Source: Verrucomicrobiota bacterium
Lineage (GTDB): Bacteria; Verrucomicrobiota; Verrucomicrobiia; Chthoniobacterales; Terrimicrobiaceae
Reading direction: 5' to 3'
Assembly: GCA_026398275.1 (NCBI GenBank)
Contig: JAPLTF010000061.1
Span: 1-64,000 of the forward strand
Length of the DNA stretch: 64,000 nucleotides
The position numbers were made by a program, and so were the translations under genes. The notes under the pieces were generated by a model. That model worked only from the letters and a program-made list of their open reading frames with translations, had not been told where the DNA came from and did not search any database. Below, piece by piece: positions 25,848 through 30,446 of this stretch; the stretch's first letter is position 1, and every line of letters begins with the position of its first letter.

Positions 25848-27068
25848 ATGGATCTCCCCAGATTGATTTTCATTGTTGTTTTGTCGCTTGCGGTTTTTCG
25901 GCCGGAGCATATCTCTGCGCAAATCTACGCCGATGTCACGGTGAGCGGGGGGGTCAATGGTAACTTCACGATCACCCTCGAGGACACGAAAGCTCCCATC
26001 ACGGTAGCCAACTTCATCGGCCTTGCCACGGGGCAGAAGGGCTGGCTCGACCTCGTAACCGGCGGCATCCGATACGCCCCATTTTACAATGGCGTCACGT
26101 TCCACCGGGTCATCGCGGGCTTCATGTCACAGACCGGCTCGCGCAATGGGAACGGCACTGACGGCCCCGGCTATACATTCCGCGACGAGATTGATCCCTC
26201 GCTGAATCATCAACCCTACACCGTCTCGATGGCCAACTCCGGCCCCGATACCAATGGCTCCCAGTGGTTTATCTCGCAGGGAACGCCATCTCATCTTGAC
26301 GGCATACACACGATCTTCGGCAAAGTAACCGACCCGGCCAGCCAAGCCGTCTGCGCGGCGATCAATGCCGCAGCCACAGATTCTTCGGATCGTCCGATTA
26401 CCACTGTAACCATCAGTTCGATTGCGGTCCGTGGTCCGTCGCTTGCCGGCTTCAATATCAATCCCACCGGTCTTCCCAAGGTTCTCAATGGAGGGACTGT
26501 GATGAAGGTCGCGGGAGTAAACCATGCGCTCGGGTTCGATCATCAACCCTATAGCGCGTATTTTGGGTTTCACACACCAGACCTCACAAACTGGTCTTCC
26601 ATGTTCGCGAATTCGTATTTCCACTCAACCGCTCCTGGCGCCGGGGATATCGACGTCACAAGTCTGGCCATCGGCAGCAAGCATTTCTATCGCATCGCGC
26701 GTGTTGATTACAGCTCGTGCGTTAATCCGATTATCCCCTCCTCCATTGCGGGGAAAACGCTGACATTTCCCGGACTCTTCGGCTCGGATTTTATACAATT
26801 GGTCATTGATCCCTCTGGATCGACTGGCAGCTACACAATGGTATTCTCTGGAGGAGTGCCTAGCACTGGAACGATCACTGCGGTTAACTACCAAAACGCA
26901 GTTTCCCCCTACTCCCCATCCCTCCGTGTTATCCTGCGATGGAATTTCGACATCGATATCACCTTCAGCATCCTGAACTTCCGAACGGCAAGCAGTGGAA
27001 AATATCGAGGACAATCGAATGTGAGTGGTGCCGAAACCATCTCCGGAGCCTTCACCTCCGCACCGTAG
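25848..27068 (+). CDS. Secreted cyclophilin-type peptidyl-prolyl isomerase with extra C-terminal domain
   Basis: 406 residues. Signal peptide of about 24 residues ends near ISAQ. The cyclophilin domain (about 25-195) shows NFTITLEDTKAPITVANFIG, VTFHRVIAGFMSQTG with the catalytic Arg, MANSGPDTNGSQWFISQG and LDGIHTIFGKV. The last 200 residues are a beta-rich region with no family recognised, with serine- and threonine-rich strands and repeated SLRV/ILRW elements. It should catalyse cis-trans Pro isomerisation in the periplasm or at the cell surface. The tail may be a binding or anchoring domain. Confidence 0.87.
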   Translation: MDLPRLIFIVVLSLAVFRPEHISAQIYADVTVSGGVNGNFTITLEDTKAPITVANFIGLATGQKGWLDLVTGGIRYAPFYNGVTFHRVIAGFMSQTGSRNGNGTDGPGYTFRDEIDPSLNHQPYTVSMANSGPDTNGSQWFISQGTPSHLDGIHTIFGKVTDPASQAVCAAINAAATDSSDRPITTVTISSIAVRGPSLAGFNINPTGLPKVLNGGTVMKVAGVNHALGFDHQPYSAYFGFHTPDLTNWSSMFANSYFHSTAPGAGDIDVTSLAIGSKHFYRIARVDYSSCVNPIIPSSIAGKTLTFPGLFGSDFIQLVIDPSGSTGSYTMVFSGGVPSTGTITAVNYQNAVSPYSPSLRVILRWNFDIDITFSILNFRTASSGKYRGQSNVSGAETISGAFTSAP

Positions 27069-27125: not shown

Positions 27126-27515
27126 ATGAACCAGGTGAAGGACACGCTCCGGGCGACCGTGCGGCTCGGGTATGACGGGCGTGTCCACAAGCAGTTCCGC
27201 GGGCCGAAGGCGGAGGAGCGGTTTGCGACCGAGGTGAAGGTGCTGAAATATCTGGAGGAGCGCGGGTGTCCGTTTGTGCCGCGCCTGCTGGAGTCCGACC
27301 CGGAGGGCCTGAAAATTGTGACCACGAATTGCGGGAGCCGGGTCGACCACCTTGACGACGAGCGATGCCGCGAGCTGTTCGACGAGTTGCTGGAATACGG
27401 TGTCCGGCACGATGACGCGGAGATGCGCAATGTGACCTACCGGCAGACGGACGGGCGGTTCTGTTTGATAGATTTCGAGTTTGCCACCATTCTGGATCCC
27501 CCGCATGTCCCCTGA
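27126..27515 (+). CDS. Minimal protein-kinase-like protein (YrbL/PhoP-network type)
   Basis: 129 residues, far shorter than a normal kinase, yet key residues occur in kinase order: VHKQF (Lys22, ATP lysine), Glu36 in the following helix, RHDDAEMRNV (His95-Asp96 and Asn102, catalytic loop) and CLIDFEF (Asp116, the DFG-type metal Asp). The glycine loop is short (RLGYDGRV) and there is no C-lobe after the DFE motif. It resembles the YrbL-PhoP_reg group as I recall it. The PP2C gene starts inside its last codons (11-bp overlap), which suggests a coupled kinase/phosphatase unit. Activity is unproven. Confidence 0.72.
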   Translation: MNQVKDTLRATVRLGYDGRVHKQFRGPKAEERFATEVKVLKYLEERGCPFVPRLLESDPEGLKIVTTNCGSRVDHLDDERCRELFDELLEYGVRHDDAEMRNVTYRQTDGRFCLIDFEFATILDPPHVP

Positions 27516-28323
27516 AGATAGTTCGCCCTATTCCCTGACCTGGTCCGGCCACACGGACCGGGGGCGGGTTCGCAAGAACAACGAGGATGCGTTTCTCGGC
27601 CTGGCCATCGATGCGCAGGAGGTCCGGCATCTTGGAAAGATCGGGGATGCCGGCGGTCAGGAAGCGGACTTTGTTTTCGCGGTGAGCGATGGCATGGGGG
27701 GGGCGATGGCGGGCGAGTTTGCGAGCCGGATTGCGGTGGAAAAAATCACAAGGATGCTGCCGCCGCTGTTCCGGCAGAATGCCGCCGGAATTTCCTCCGG
27801 CTTCACGGAGGTGCTCGAGCAGCTCTTCGACGAAATCCACAAGGCGCTTCTCTACCTCGGTGCATGCTATGAGGAATGCTCGGGCATGGGCGCGACCCTG
27901 AGCCTCTGCTGGTTCACGAGGCGCTGGATGTATTTCGGGCACATCGGCGACAGCCGGATCTATTATCTTCCGGCAGGAGGGGGAATCAAGCAGCTCACCC
28001 ATGATGACAGCCACGTCGGCTGGCTTTTCCGCAACGGGCAACTGAATGAGCGCGAGGCAAAAAACCATCCCCGCCGGAACGTTCTGCAGGCTGCGCTTGG
28101 CGCGGGGCACCAGTTTGTGAACCCGCAGGTCGGCGCGGTGGGCTTCGAGGCGGGCGACCGGTTTCTTCTCTGCACCGACGGGGTGACGGATGCCCTCTAC
28201 AACGACCAGCTGCCCGGCCTGCTGGACGAGGGAGCGAACGCCGCCGACCATCTGGTGCGGGAGGCGGTCGCCCGTTCCGGCCGCGACAACTCGACCGCGC
28301 TGATCATCCGGGCATCGGATTGA
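27505..28323 (+). CDS. PP2C-type serine/threonine phosphatase
   Basis: 272 residues starting MSPEDSSPYSLTWSGHTDRG. PPM-family motifs: RKNNEDAF (first Asp site), FAVSDGMGGAMAGEFAS, ECSGMGATLSLCW, HIGDSRIYYL, LCTDGVTDAL and RDNSTALIIR. It is a Mg2+/Mn2+-dependent soluble phosphatase with no membrane segment or extra domain. ATG 27505 overlaps the stop of the small kinase-like gene by 11 bp, so the two are translated together and probably act on common substrates. The longer start at 27481 would extend further into that gene and was rejected. Confidence 0.92.
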   Translation: MSPEDSSPYSLTWSGHTDRGRVRKNNEDAFLGLAIDAQEVRHLGKIGDAGGQEADFVFAVSDGMGGAMAGEFASRIAVEKITRMLPPLFRQNAAGISSGFTEVLEQLFDEIHKALLYLGACYEECSGMGATLSLCWFTRRWMYFGHIGDSRIYYLPAGGGIKQLTHDDSHVGWLFRNGQLNEREAKNHPRRNVLQAALGAGHQFVNPQVGAVGFEAGDRFLLCTDGVTDALYNDQLPGLLDEGANAADHLVREAVARSGRDNSTALIIRASD

Positions 28324-28478: not shown

Positions 28479-30446
28479 CTACCATCCCCCCCCGCCGCCC
28501 CCGCCCCCGCCGCCACCCGACGAGCCGCCGCCCCCGCTGCCGGAGCTGGAGCCGGGGGCCGTGGACGCGGAGGAAATGGCGCTGTTGAAAGAGCTTGTGA
28601 AGGCGGATGCGGCAGCCAGAGGCAGGACGAGATTTGATGTGTTGCTTCCGGAGTCCGGAGAAAGCGATGCGGCTGCGAGCACATCGGTGAACTGTTCCGA
28701 CCAGGCTTGTTCGACCCCCAGGGCCAGCGCGTAGGGGAGGAATTTCTCAAAGAGCTCGGGGGTCCGTTCCGGAGGGTTCTCCAAGCCGAGCCGCTCGGCT
28801 TCGGCGACGGACAGGTATTTTTTGAAGCCGAGGATTTGATCGCGGATTTTCTGCCCCTCCGGTGTCGGGCGTTTGAGGAGGTGCTGAAAAACCACGCAGA
28901 GCGCGATGCCGCCGGCGTAAAGTGCGCAGACCCACGGGGAGGCGAGCTGGAGGAGCATCCACATGCCGAAAAACCAGCCAATGAGAAAGGGGATCGAGAA
29001 AAATGTGAGGGCGATGGCGGCCAGTTTGTTCGAGGATTTCCAGGCTTTGAAGGCCGTCATGGAAAGCGCGCCGCAGCCGAGCGACCAGATCGTCAGCCAG
29101 ATGATGAGGAAAAAGGATCCCTCCTTGCTCTGCGCATCGCGCAGAGAGATGGCGAGGGGGATGAGTGTGGCGAGGAGGCCGACGACCCAGACAAGGGTGT
29201 TCCGGGAAAACAGGCGGCCCGCCTGAACGGCGAGATCCTTCGCCATCACCGTCCGCGCGGCTCCCAGACGGGCGTGGTTCGTCTGCATGAGAGCAAGCGA
29301 TGAGCCGCCTGCGAACAGCGCATTGAGCAGGCGTCCGGCCGCTTCATCGTGAACAACGGCGTCGTTGTTTTTGACCAGGTCGTAGACGCCTTTGGAAAGC
29401 TCCTTGATCTTGAGAGCGCGCTGAACCGCGAGATGCAGGATGGCCGCAGAGAGGCTGGTGTTATCGCAGGTGCCGAGCCCGTCGAGATACCGCACCTCCT
29501 GCGGGGTGAATCCTTCCGGCGGAGCGAAGAGCGGGATGGTGACTCCCCGTTTCGGATCCCGGCCAACGAGGATCCAGCTCACCAGAAAATATCCGAAGCC
29601 GGCGAGCAGGCCGATGGCACCCACAGCGATGCCGCGGTTTGCGGTGACGGCGGCGCGGAGTTCCTCTCCCGGCGGAGGCGCTTTGACGAACCCCTTCGGC
29701 CAGGTGACGACGATCGTCAGTCCCTCTCCGGGGGGTAGGGGTCTTGTTGTCTTTATGGAGACGTCACAGCCCGCTTTCCCGGTGATCTCAAAGTCCGTGC
29801 CCTTGCTTCCCTGCGGGCCGGTGTAGGCCTCGATGGAGCGCGGGCTGGCACCGGGCGGCATGTCCGCGCAGGCGGATGCGGAGAGGATCGGGAACGACCA
29901 CCCGTTGCCGGTGACATTCCAGTAGAGCTCGTCGAATCCCTCGAAAAACCCCAGCTGCCGGCCTGTCCGATATCTGATCGTGTAGGTCGTCTCCACGTGC
30001 GGCAGGAAGACATCCGCGCTGCCGAGATAGATCCTGAGCCCGTTCGAACGGTTTTCCGTGTGCCATGGCTCCTGGTTCCCATCGCGCAGGACATCCAGAA
30101 TTTGGAACGGGACGCTGGATTTGAGGCCCCATGTTCCGGGATGCCGGGTCGGGAAATCGCGGTAGATCCCGCGCTTGATCTGGTTGCCCTCCGGCATCAC
30201 GCGGATGGTTTCGGTGACGATGAGGTCCGAATCCGGCAGGACCTCAATCCGGCTCGAGAAACTCCGGATCTCTTCGGCGGCGAAGAGCCGGGAGAACGGC
30301 CCGGAGATAGCAATAAGAACTAAGATCGCAAGGGCTGCCGGCTGGAAAACTCCGAGGCATGGGAATCCTGCCCATGCGAAAAAAATATCAGACATGGGCA
30401 GGATGCCCATGCCACGAGCGGCTTTCGATGGCCTCATTCTTTTCAC
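28479..30446 (-). CDS. DUF2207 membrane protein with glycine-rich tail
   Basis: 655 residues. An N-terminal hydrophobic segment (about residues 36-55) is followed by the DUF2207 beta-domain (FSSRIEVLPDSDLIVTETIR, IKRGIYRDFPTRHPG), a transmembrane helix near 270-290, a helical region with QRALKIKELSKGVYDLV, and two to three further spans near 425-510. It ends in GGGGGGGGW, as in many TPM/DUF2207 proteins. The start is GTG 30446, overlapping the lemA stop (GTGA). The first 20 residues (MGILPM within) are encoded by an interspersed palindromic repeat. It is the last gene of a five-gene overlapping operon; the function is unknown. Confidence 0.82.
   Translation of the reverse strand: MKRMRPSKAARGMGILPMSDIFFAWAGFPCLGVFQPAALAILVLIAISGPFSRLFAAEEIRSFSSRIEVLPDSDLIVTETIRVMPEGNQIKRGIYRDFPTRHPGTWGLKSSVPFQILDVLRDGNQEPWHTENRSNGLRIYLGSADVFLPHVETTYTIRYRTGRQLGFFEGFDELYWNVTGNGWSFPILSASACADMPPGASPRSIEAYTGPQGSKGTDFEITGKAGCDVSIKTTRPLPPGEGLTIVVTWPKGFVKAPPPGEELRAAVTANRGIAVGAIGLLAGFGYFLVSWILVGRDPKRGVTIPLFAPPEGFTPQEVRYLDGLGTCDNTSLSAAILHLAVQRALKIKELSKGVYDLVKNNDAVVHDEAAGRLLNALFAGGSSLALMQTNHARLGAARTVMAKDLAVQAGRLFSRNTLVWVVGLLATLIPLAISLRDAQSKEGSFFLIIWLTIWSLGCGALSMTAFKAWKSSNKLAAIALTFFSIPFLIGWFFGMWMLLQLASPWVCALYAGGIALCVVFQHLLKRPTPEGQKIRDQILGFKKYLSVAEAERLGLENPPERTPELFEKFLPYALALGVEQAWSEQFTDVLAAASLSPDSGSNTSNLVLPLAAASAFTSSFNSAISSASTAPGSSSGSGGGGSSGGGGGGGGGGGW
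30356..30413. repeat. MGILPM-type palindromic repeat inside a coding sequence
   Basis: Arms GGCATGGGAATCCTGCCCATG (30356-30376, 21 bp) and CATGGGCAGGATGCCCATGCC (30393-30413, 21 bp) are inverted copies with one mismatch around a 16-base loop. On the minus strand one arm reads MGILPM in the DUF2207 frame and the other gives AWAGFPC. I recall this repeat as widespread in verrucomicrobial genomes. Confidence 0.8.

Follow-up and report, generated by a model that had tools for sequence, protein, structure and literature searches.

What is a kinase-like protein of 129 residues, encoded in overlap with a PP2C-type phosphatase, doing in a bacterium of the Verrucomicrobiota? The pair lies in a stretch of 64,000 nucleotides from such a genome (the window), and the initial annotation read it as a possible compact two-gene phospho-switch. 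The kinase fold, the conserved pairing and natural fusions of the two proteins speak for this idea, but a glutamine synthetase gene makes it a three-gene set, and the pair is probably a member of that set rather than a free-standing switch. We propose that a dedicated kinase/phosphatase pair controls nitrogen assimilation in the Verrucomicrobiae, most likely by reversible phosphorylation of this synthetase, a reading suggested by gene distribution and neighbourhood to which we give a probability of about 0.55.

Fold and family of the small kinase-like protein

Both reading frames stand as first annotated, with the start of the PP2C gene inside the last codons of the 129-residue ORF (Table 1). 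On the plus strand, a cyclophilin-type peptidyl-prolyl isomerase ORF (25848-27068, recognized by its translation) stops 57 nt upstream of the kinase start. On the minus strand, a predicted membrane protein of 655 residues with a long glycine-rich C-terminal end (28479-30446) is convergent with the PP2C gene.

Table 1. Kinase and phosphatase genes and their conserved elements, in window coordinates
Feature	Position	Strand	Remarks
Mini-kinase gene	27126..27515	+	129 aa
PP2C-type phosphatase gene	27505..28323	+	272 aa; motifs NNED, DGMGG, GDSR, TDG, GRDN
Overlap of the kinase and PP2C frames, 11 nt	27505..27515	+	PP2C ATG precedes kinase TGA
Lys22 codon (beta3 lysine)	27189..27191	+	Invariant in 119/119 distinct homologues
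Glu36 codon (helix C glutamate)	27231..27233	+	Invariant, 119/119; inside model helix 29-45
Catalytic loop His95-x-Asp97-xxxx-Asn102	27408..27431	+	His95, Asp97, Arg101 and Asn102 invariant, 119/119; position 96 variable
Metal-binding motif Asp116-Phe117-Glu118 (DFE)	27471..27479	+	Asp116 and Glu118 in 119/119; Phe117 in 118/119

The AlphaFold2 model of the protein alone, built with 81 aligned homologues (mean pLDDT 93, pTM 0.86), is a truncated kinase fold in which the catalytic set is complete: an N-lobe (strands 2-6, 10-14 and 20-24, helix 29-45, strands 54-58 and 63-66), one helix (78-91) ahead of the catalytic loop, the loop itself, two strands and the DFE motif. No predicted element lies beyond a short strand at 120-122, and the chain ends about 10 residues past DFE, in agreement with the earlier remark that no C-lobe follows the DFG-type motif. 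The beta3 lysine with its helix C glutamate, the catalytic aspartate, the metal-binding Asn and Asp and a DFG-type motif are all present. Lys22, Glu36, His95, Asn102 and Asp116 had been placed correctly, but the catalytic residue, first taken to be Asp96, is in fact Asp97, in an H-x-D motif five residues ahead of Asn102. Position 96 is D, E, L, G or C among the homologues and position 97 is always D. Together with Arg101 and Glu118, the five residues first named and Asp97 are identical in all 119 distinct homologues, a set collected by similarity to the window protein, from which distant forms may be missing. The catalytic aspartate serves phosphate transfer and is dispensable for ATP binding, and its invariance thus favours catalysis.

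To which family does such a protein belong? APH (PF01636) is the only Pfam family above its cut-off (2.2e-6, 28 bits against a cut-off of 23.2), its best stretch covering residues 84-125 only, and Pfam's protein kinase model is not among the matches. The PHROGs match is phrog_3297 'kinase', a 160-position family (E 3e-7, residues 9-121), while tblastn of phage records with the window protein gave no match. By sequence, the 129-residue protein has no match at E up to 10 among solved structures; by fold, the best solved match in Foldseek is the archaeal RNA kinase Ark1 (8yv5, E 1.5e-7, 27% identity). Giant-virus kinases of 160-183 residues reach a query TM-score of up to 0.80, above any solved structure in the Foldseek list. 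In VIA-align 2, CDKL1 (Z 13.6, 119 aligned, rmsd 3.0) and Rio2 (Z 12.9, 120 aligned, rmsd 3.5) come first, followed by PRPK (Z 12.7, 126 aligned, rmsd 3.7) and Ark1 (Z 12.0, 2.7-2.8 A), scores that are all near one another; in such comparisons, many kinases reach high values through their ATP-binding parts alone. We discarded an assignment to the Hanks-type kinases, for which a full C-lobe (activation segment, APE motif, helices F-I) is missing. If it is a self-contained kinase of about 125 residues lacking everything past the DFG-type motif, the protein would be among the smallest natural kinases; no report of a kinase this short was found in the papers searched.

Pairing of the kinase with its PP2C neighbour

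Homologues of the mini-kinase, 56-92% identical, occur in 39 of 58 related genomes (two extra matches at E ~0.5 are uncounted) and in 195 of 384 genomes of the class, and at least 555 loci are found in named species, a spread well above what chance would produce. A search for the gene pair in other Verrucomicrobiota had been suggested from the start, and the pairing proves to be conserved: PP2C adjoins the kinase in 30/30 relatives and in 26/26 further loci of the phylum sample, and it follows the kinase in 79 of 80 loci of named species, the 80th being cut by a contig end. The spacing varies from about -89 nt to about +300 nt, with a 4-nt ATGA frequent. As the overlap thus ranges from none to tens of nucleotides among relatives, translational coupling is common but not constant; the overlap behind the tie in translation first proposed is seen in the window and often in relatives, without conservation of its length.

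The phosphatase itself is recognized by Pfam (PP2C_2 3.5e-17, PP2C 2.5e-9) and combines a PP2C fold with the metal motifs, NNED being kept in 105 and DGMGG in 110 of 116 relatives. It scores 181.1 bits against the Stp1/IreP family NF033484, under the curated cut-off of 230. In at least three families, kinase and phosphatase are fused into proteins of about 400-425 residues. Mapped onto a tree of 116 kinases, which has few alignment columns and many unresolved forks, the fused state requires 5-6 changes, at least 2 of them imposed by well-supported branches; the fusion thus appears to have arisen several times. The AlphaFold2 model of one fused protein (L169; pLDDT 91, pTM 0.73) shows two domains predicted with good confidence and, between them, a low-confidence linker at 126-136.

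Are the two genes ever apart, which the initial annotation would have taken as a refutation? They are in two genera of family f15 (g57 and g66), where the kinase stands behind mgtE, whose MgtE domains were confirmed, and has no adjoining PP2C (L067, L072, L178-L183); elsewhere, pairing is the rule. At several of these loci the kinase start touches the mgtE stop, and mgtE may be a second target or a mere new address. In other f15 genera, the kinase-adjoining PP2C is only 30-36% identical to that of the window. In a genome of another class (G258, L076 4634-6001), a predicted methyltransferase also carries a related kinase domain at its C-terminus; its gene lies in a glycosyltransferase-rich, apparent glycan cluster from which PP2C is absent.

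The link to glutamine synthetase

Near the pair in many relatives lies a gene for a 340-residue glutamine synthetase with Gln-synt_N and Gln-synt_C domains, which we take to be of type II (GSII) from its length and from what is generally known of the types. It directly adjoins the kinase/PP2C pair at 31 of the 41 loci compared, which span 9-17 kb, and the two also share their distribution. Among the 384 genomes of the class, 194 have kinase and GSII, one has the kinase only and nine GSII only; in seven of these nine the enzyme is a more divergent form (E 1e-94 to 1e-130), the remaining two being G013 and G642. The divergent forms without a mini-kinase are those of G451, G498, G587, G619, G641, G645 and G652. 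In the phylum sample (387 genomes), kinase and GSII occur in exactly the same 78 class members, and eight genomes outside the class carry GSII without the kinase. The 58 nearer relatives divide into 37 with both genes, 17 with neither, two with the kinase only and two with GSII only, three of the four discordant genomes being 64-86% complete. These samples overlap and their genomes are related by descent, which inflates a co-occurrence test, so that the very small Fisher values are not to be read as probabilities. The weight lies in the joint gain and loss of both genes within families f4, f6, f7, f15 and f17.

GSII is at most 3 kb away from 64 of the 79 kinase genes found in the phylum sample. 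For 57 of these, it is upstream on the opposite strand, hence divergent, with a median gap of 224 bp; for the other seven, all in f15, it is downstream on the same strand. A third arrangement, GSII upstream on the same strand, occurs in a named species (L156). One genome (G402; L074, L075) carries the kinase-PP2C fusion twice, both copies with a GSII of their own alongside, and one of these two GSII is divergent, at 50% identity to the usual form. Where the kinase has moved behind mgtE, the PP2C orthologue (54-58% identical) sits about 200 bp from GSII in seven of the eight genomes checked (L194-L196, L207-L210); in the eighth, G365 (L206), PP2C was not found beside GSII. In the window's own genome, the sole glutamine synthetase gene follows a diaminopimelate decarboxylase-like gene on a different contig, unlinked to the pair, and it is likewise unlinked in near relatives. 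That genome encodes two PII proteins, and GlnE is absent from it (at 98.7% completeness, an absence that is likely rather than certain).

Co-occurrence and linkage together are what a dedicated regulator of GSII would leave behind, and they make a functional link between the pair and GSII very likely. A defence role was set aside, since these are single-copy genes present across the class and tied to GSII; PADLOC gave weak kinase matches only (E of 0.017 or above) and, for the phosphatase, a match at 5e-6 to a candidate-defence PP2C model. Within GSII, no residue stood out as a kinase-specific acceptor: 22 class-specific positions (relative to eight GSII from outside the class) had to be dropped as kinase-linked, for the kinase-free G350 shares them, including the hydroxyl residues Thr235, Tyr246 and Tyr310. 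We also rejected as evidence the correlations of sequence identity (kinase-GSII r 0.60, PP2C-GSII 0.63, kinase-PP2C 0.82), which are uncorrected for shared ancestry.

A candidate switch for glutamine synthetase and its alternatives

To explain these results, we envision a mini-kinase in which Lys22, Glu36, Asn102 and Asp116 would bind ATP-Mg and Asp97 would serve phosphate transfer, and a PP2C that would strip the phosphate from GSII again. In kinases, the helices after DFG are the usual substrate-binding part. Since the mini-kinase has no such peptide-binding part, it would recognize its substrate by docking on GSII or on its PP2C partner. Here we infer that the mini-kinase is active and that it acts on GSII, as well as the direction of the effect and the signal; that GSII is the direct substrate of an active mini-kinase we regard as an even chance. 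The co-occurrence, the linkage, the double set in G402, the PP2C that stays by GSII and the fusions all point to a GSII switch, and a genome with one glutamine synthetase gene, two PII proteins and no GlnE is consistent with it. Against it stand the unlinked GSII of the window's own genome and the two genera that keep the kinase beside mgtE; moreover, a gene neighbourhood indicates a pathway, not a substrate.

How would such a pair compare with known systems? Bacteria commonly encode a kinase and a PP2C in one operon, and GlnA of B. subtilis is itself among the listed substrates of PrkC (PMC6213207). Like PrkC-PrpC and PknB-Stp, the pair described here encodes a kinase together with a PP2C that is assumed to reverse it; unlike them, the mini-kinase has neither a receptor or membrane part nor a C-lobe past DFE, is missed by Pfam's protein kinase model and is tied to one metabolic gene. 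GlnE of enterobacteria offers an analogy in role only, that of reversible covalent control of glutamine synthetase: there, one bifunctional enzyme transfers AMP onto GSI (PMC6316151), whereas here the players are GSII, a kinase fold and a PP2C. In the papers searched we found no report of a dedicated kinase/PP2C pair for one metabolic enzyme, and in a search that was partly open-access only, no paper on such a pair linked to glutamine synthetase in Verrucomicrobiota. A dedicated GSII phospho-switch built on a kinase of about 125 residues without the post-DFG part, a form of control not described in the papers searched, has in our estimate slightly less than even odds.

Could the pair serve nitrogen metabolism through another target (PII, an ammonium transporter or a shared-promoter regulator), GSII being merely a co-regulated neighbour? 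The divergent order with its short median gap permits a shared control region, PII is encoded in the window's own genome (to which the PII search was applied), and covalent modification of PII proteins is well known (review PMC4285133). We nonetheless consider this unlikely, for the co-occurrence follows GSII itself, down to its subtype, and GSII has been duplicated together with the pair in G402.

The missing substrate-binding part raises another alternative, namely that the small protein is a nucleotide-sensing subunit that switches PP2C on and off rather than a working kinase. In fact, Salmonella SteC 210-375, cut within its C-lobe, is inactive (PMC13395416), which by analogy also speaks against a GSII switch, and the small protein is fused to PP2C in several lineages. 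SteC and OspG resemble the mini-kinase in their reduced C-lobes, and OspG depends on a partner to become active (PMC13395416); however, the minimal active part of SteC (residues 210-429) is far longer than the mini-kinase, and both effectors act in host cells. By the same analogy, a kinase without post-DFG helices may rely on a partner for substrate binding, so that the SteC and OspG data would fit a partner-dependent enzyme, but also a sensor without kinase activity. The invariance of Asp97, superfluous for sensing alone, and the kinases found apart from PP2C in two genera make the sensor improbable in our view.

An RNA or small-molecule kinase akin to archaeal ArkI or to APH/Kdo kinases, with PP2C playing a separate role, is more doubtful still. 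Ark1 is the best solved fold match, and ArkI/Ark1 (AQ578 family) shares with the mini-kinase a compact fold and the DFE motif (PMC9095486); APH is the sole Pfam family over its cut-off, and a distant relative, the L076 domain, is encoded in a glycan gene cluster. However, ArkI is larger (216 residues in T. kodakarensis), has HGQ in place of HxD and carries extra C-terminal helices with a YKR motif, a part that it requires (PMC9095486). The mini-kinase, with H-[DELGC]-D in 119/119 homologues and no residues where the YKR helix would be, was thus rejected as an ArkI and has H-x-D as in APH/Kdo kinases. The PP2C partner and the GSII linkage suggest a phosphoprotein, and ATP-binding parts alone suffice for high fold scores against many kinases. 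Other compact relatives differ as well: Bud32/PRPK and RIO kinases are atypical kinases with the same core but keep further C-terminal helices and are only 16-19% identical in sequence to the mini-kinase; small phage and giant-virus kinases (phrog_3297; BFVD matches of 157-183 aa) have a similarly short architecture but, unlike the mini-kinase, no known PP2C or GSII partner. Finally, we give hardly any credence to a small, multi-target kinase/PP2C pair of the ordinary Hanks type, whose GSII linkage would be inherited order without functional meaning: such operon pairs are common (PMC6213207) and a single arrangement prevails in most linked cases, but linkage is kept across different arrangements and twice over in G402, co-occurrence persists where linkage is lost, and both genes vary jointly in presence and absence within several families.

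Control of GSII by reversible phosphorylation is therefore the reading that we prefer. In many bacteria, ammonium enters cell nitrogen through glutamine synthetase, whose best-known covalent control is the adenylylation of GSI; GSII is the type shared with eukaryotes. In the Verrucomicrobiae, a class whose members are common in soil and fresh water, a mini-kinase and a PP2C that track GSII suggest an undescribed on/off switch for the ammonium-uptake enzyme. If true, a dedicated GSII phospho-switch in this class would add a mode of control for glutamine synthetase, and if its 125-residue kinase is active, it would show how little of the kinase fold suffices for phosphate transfer.
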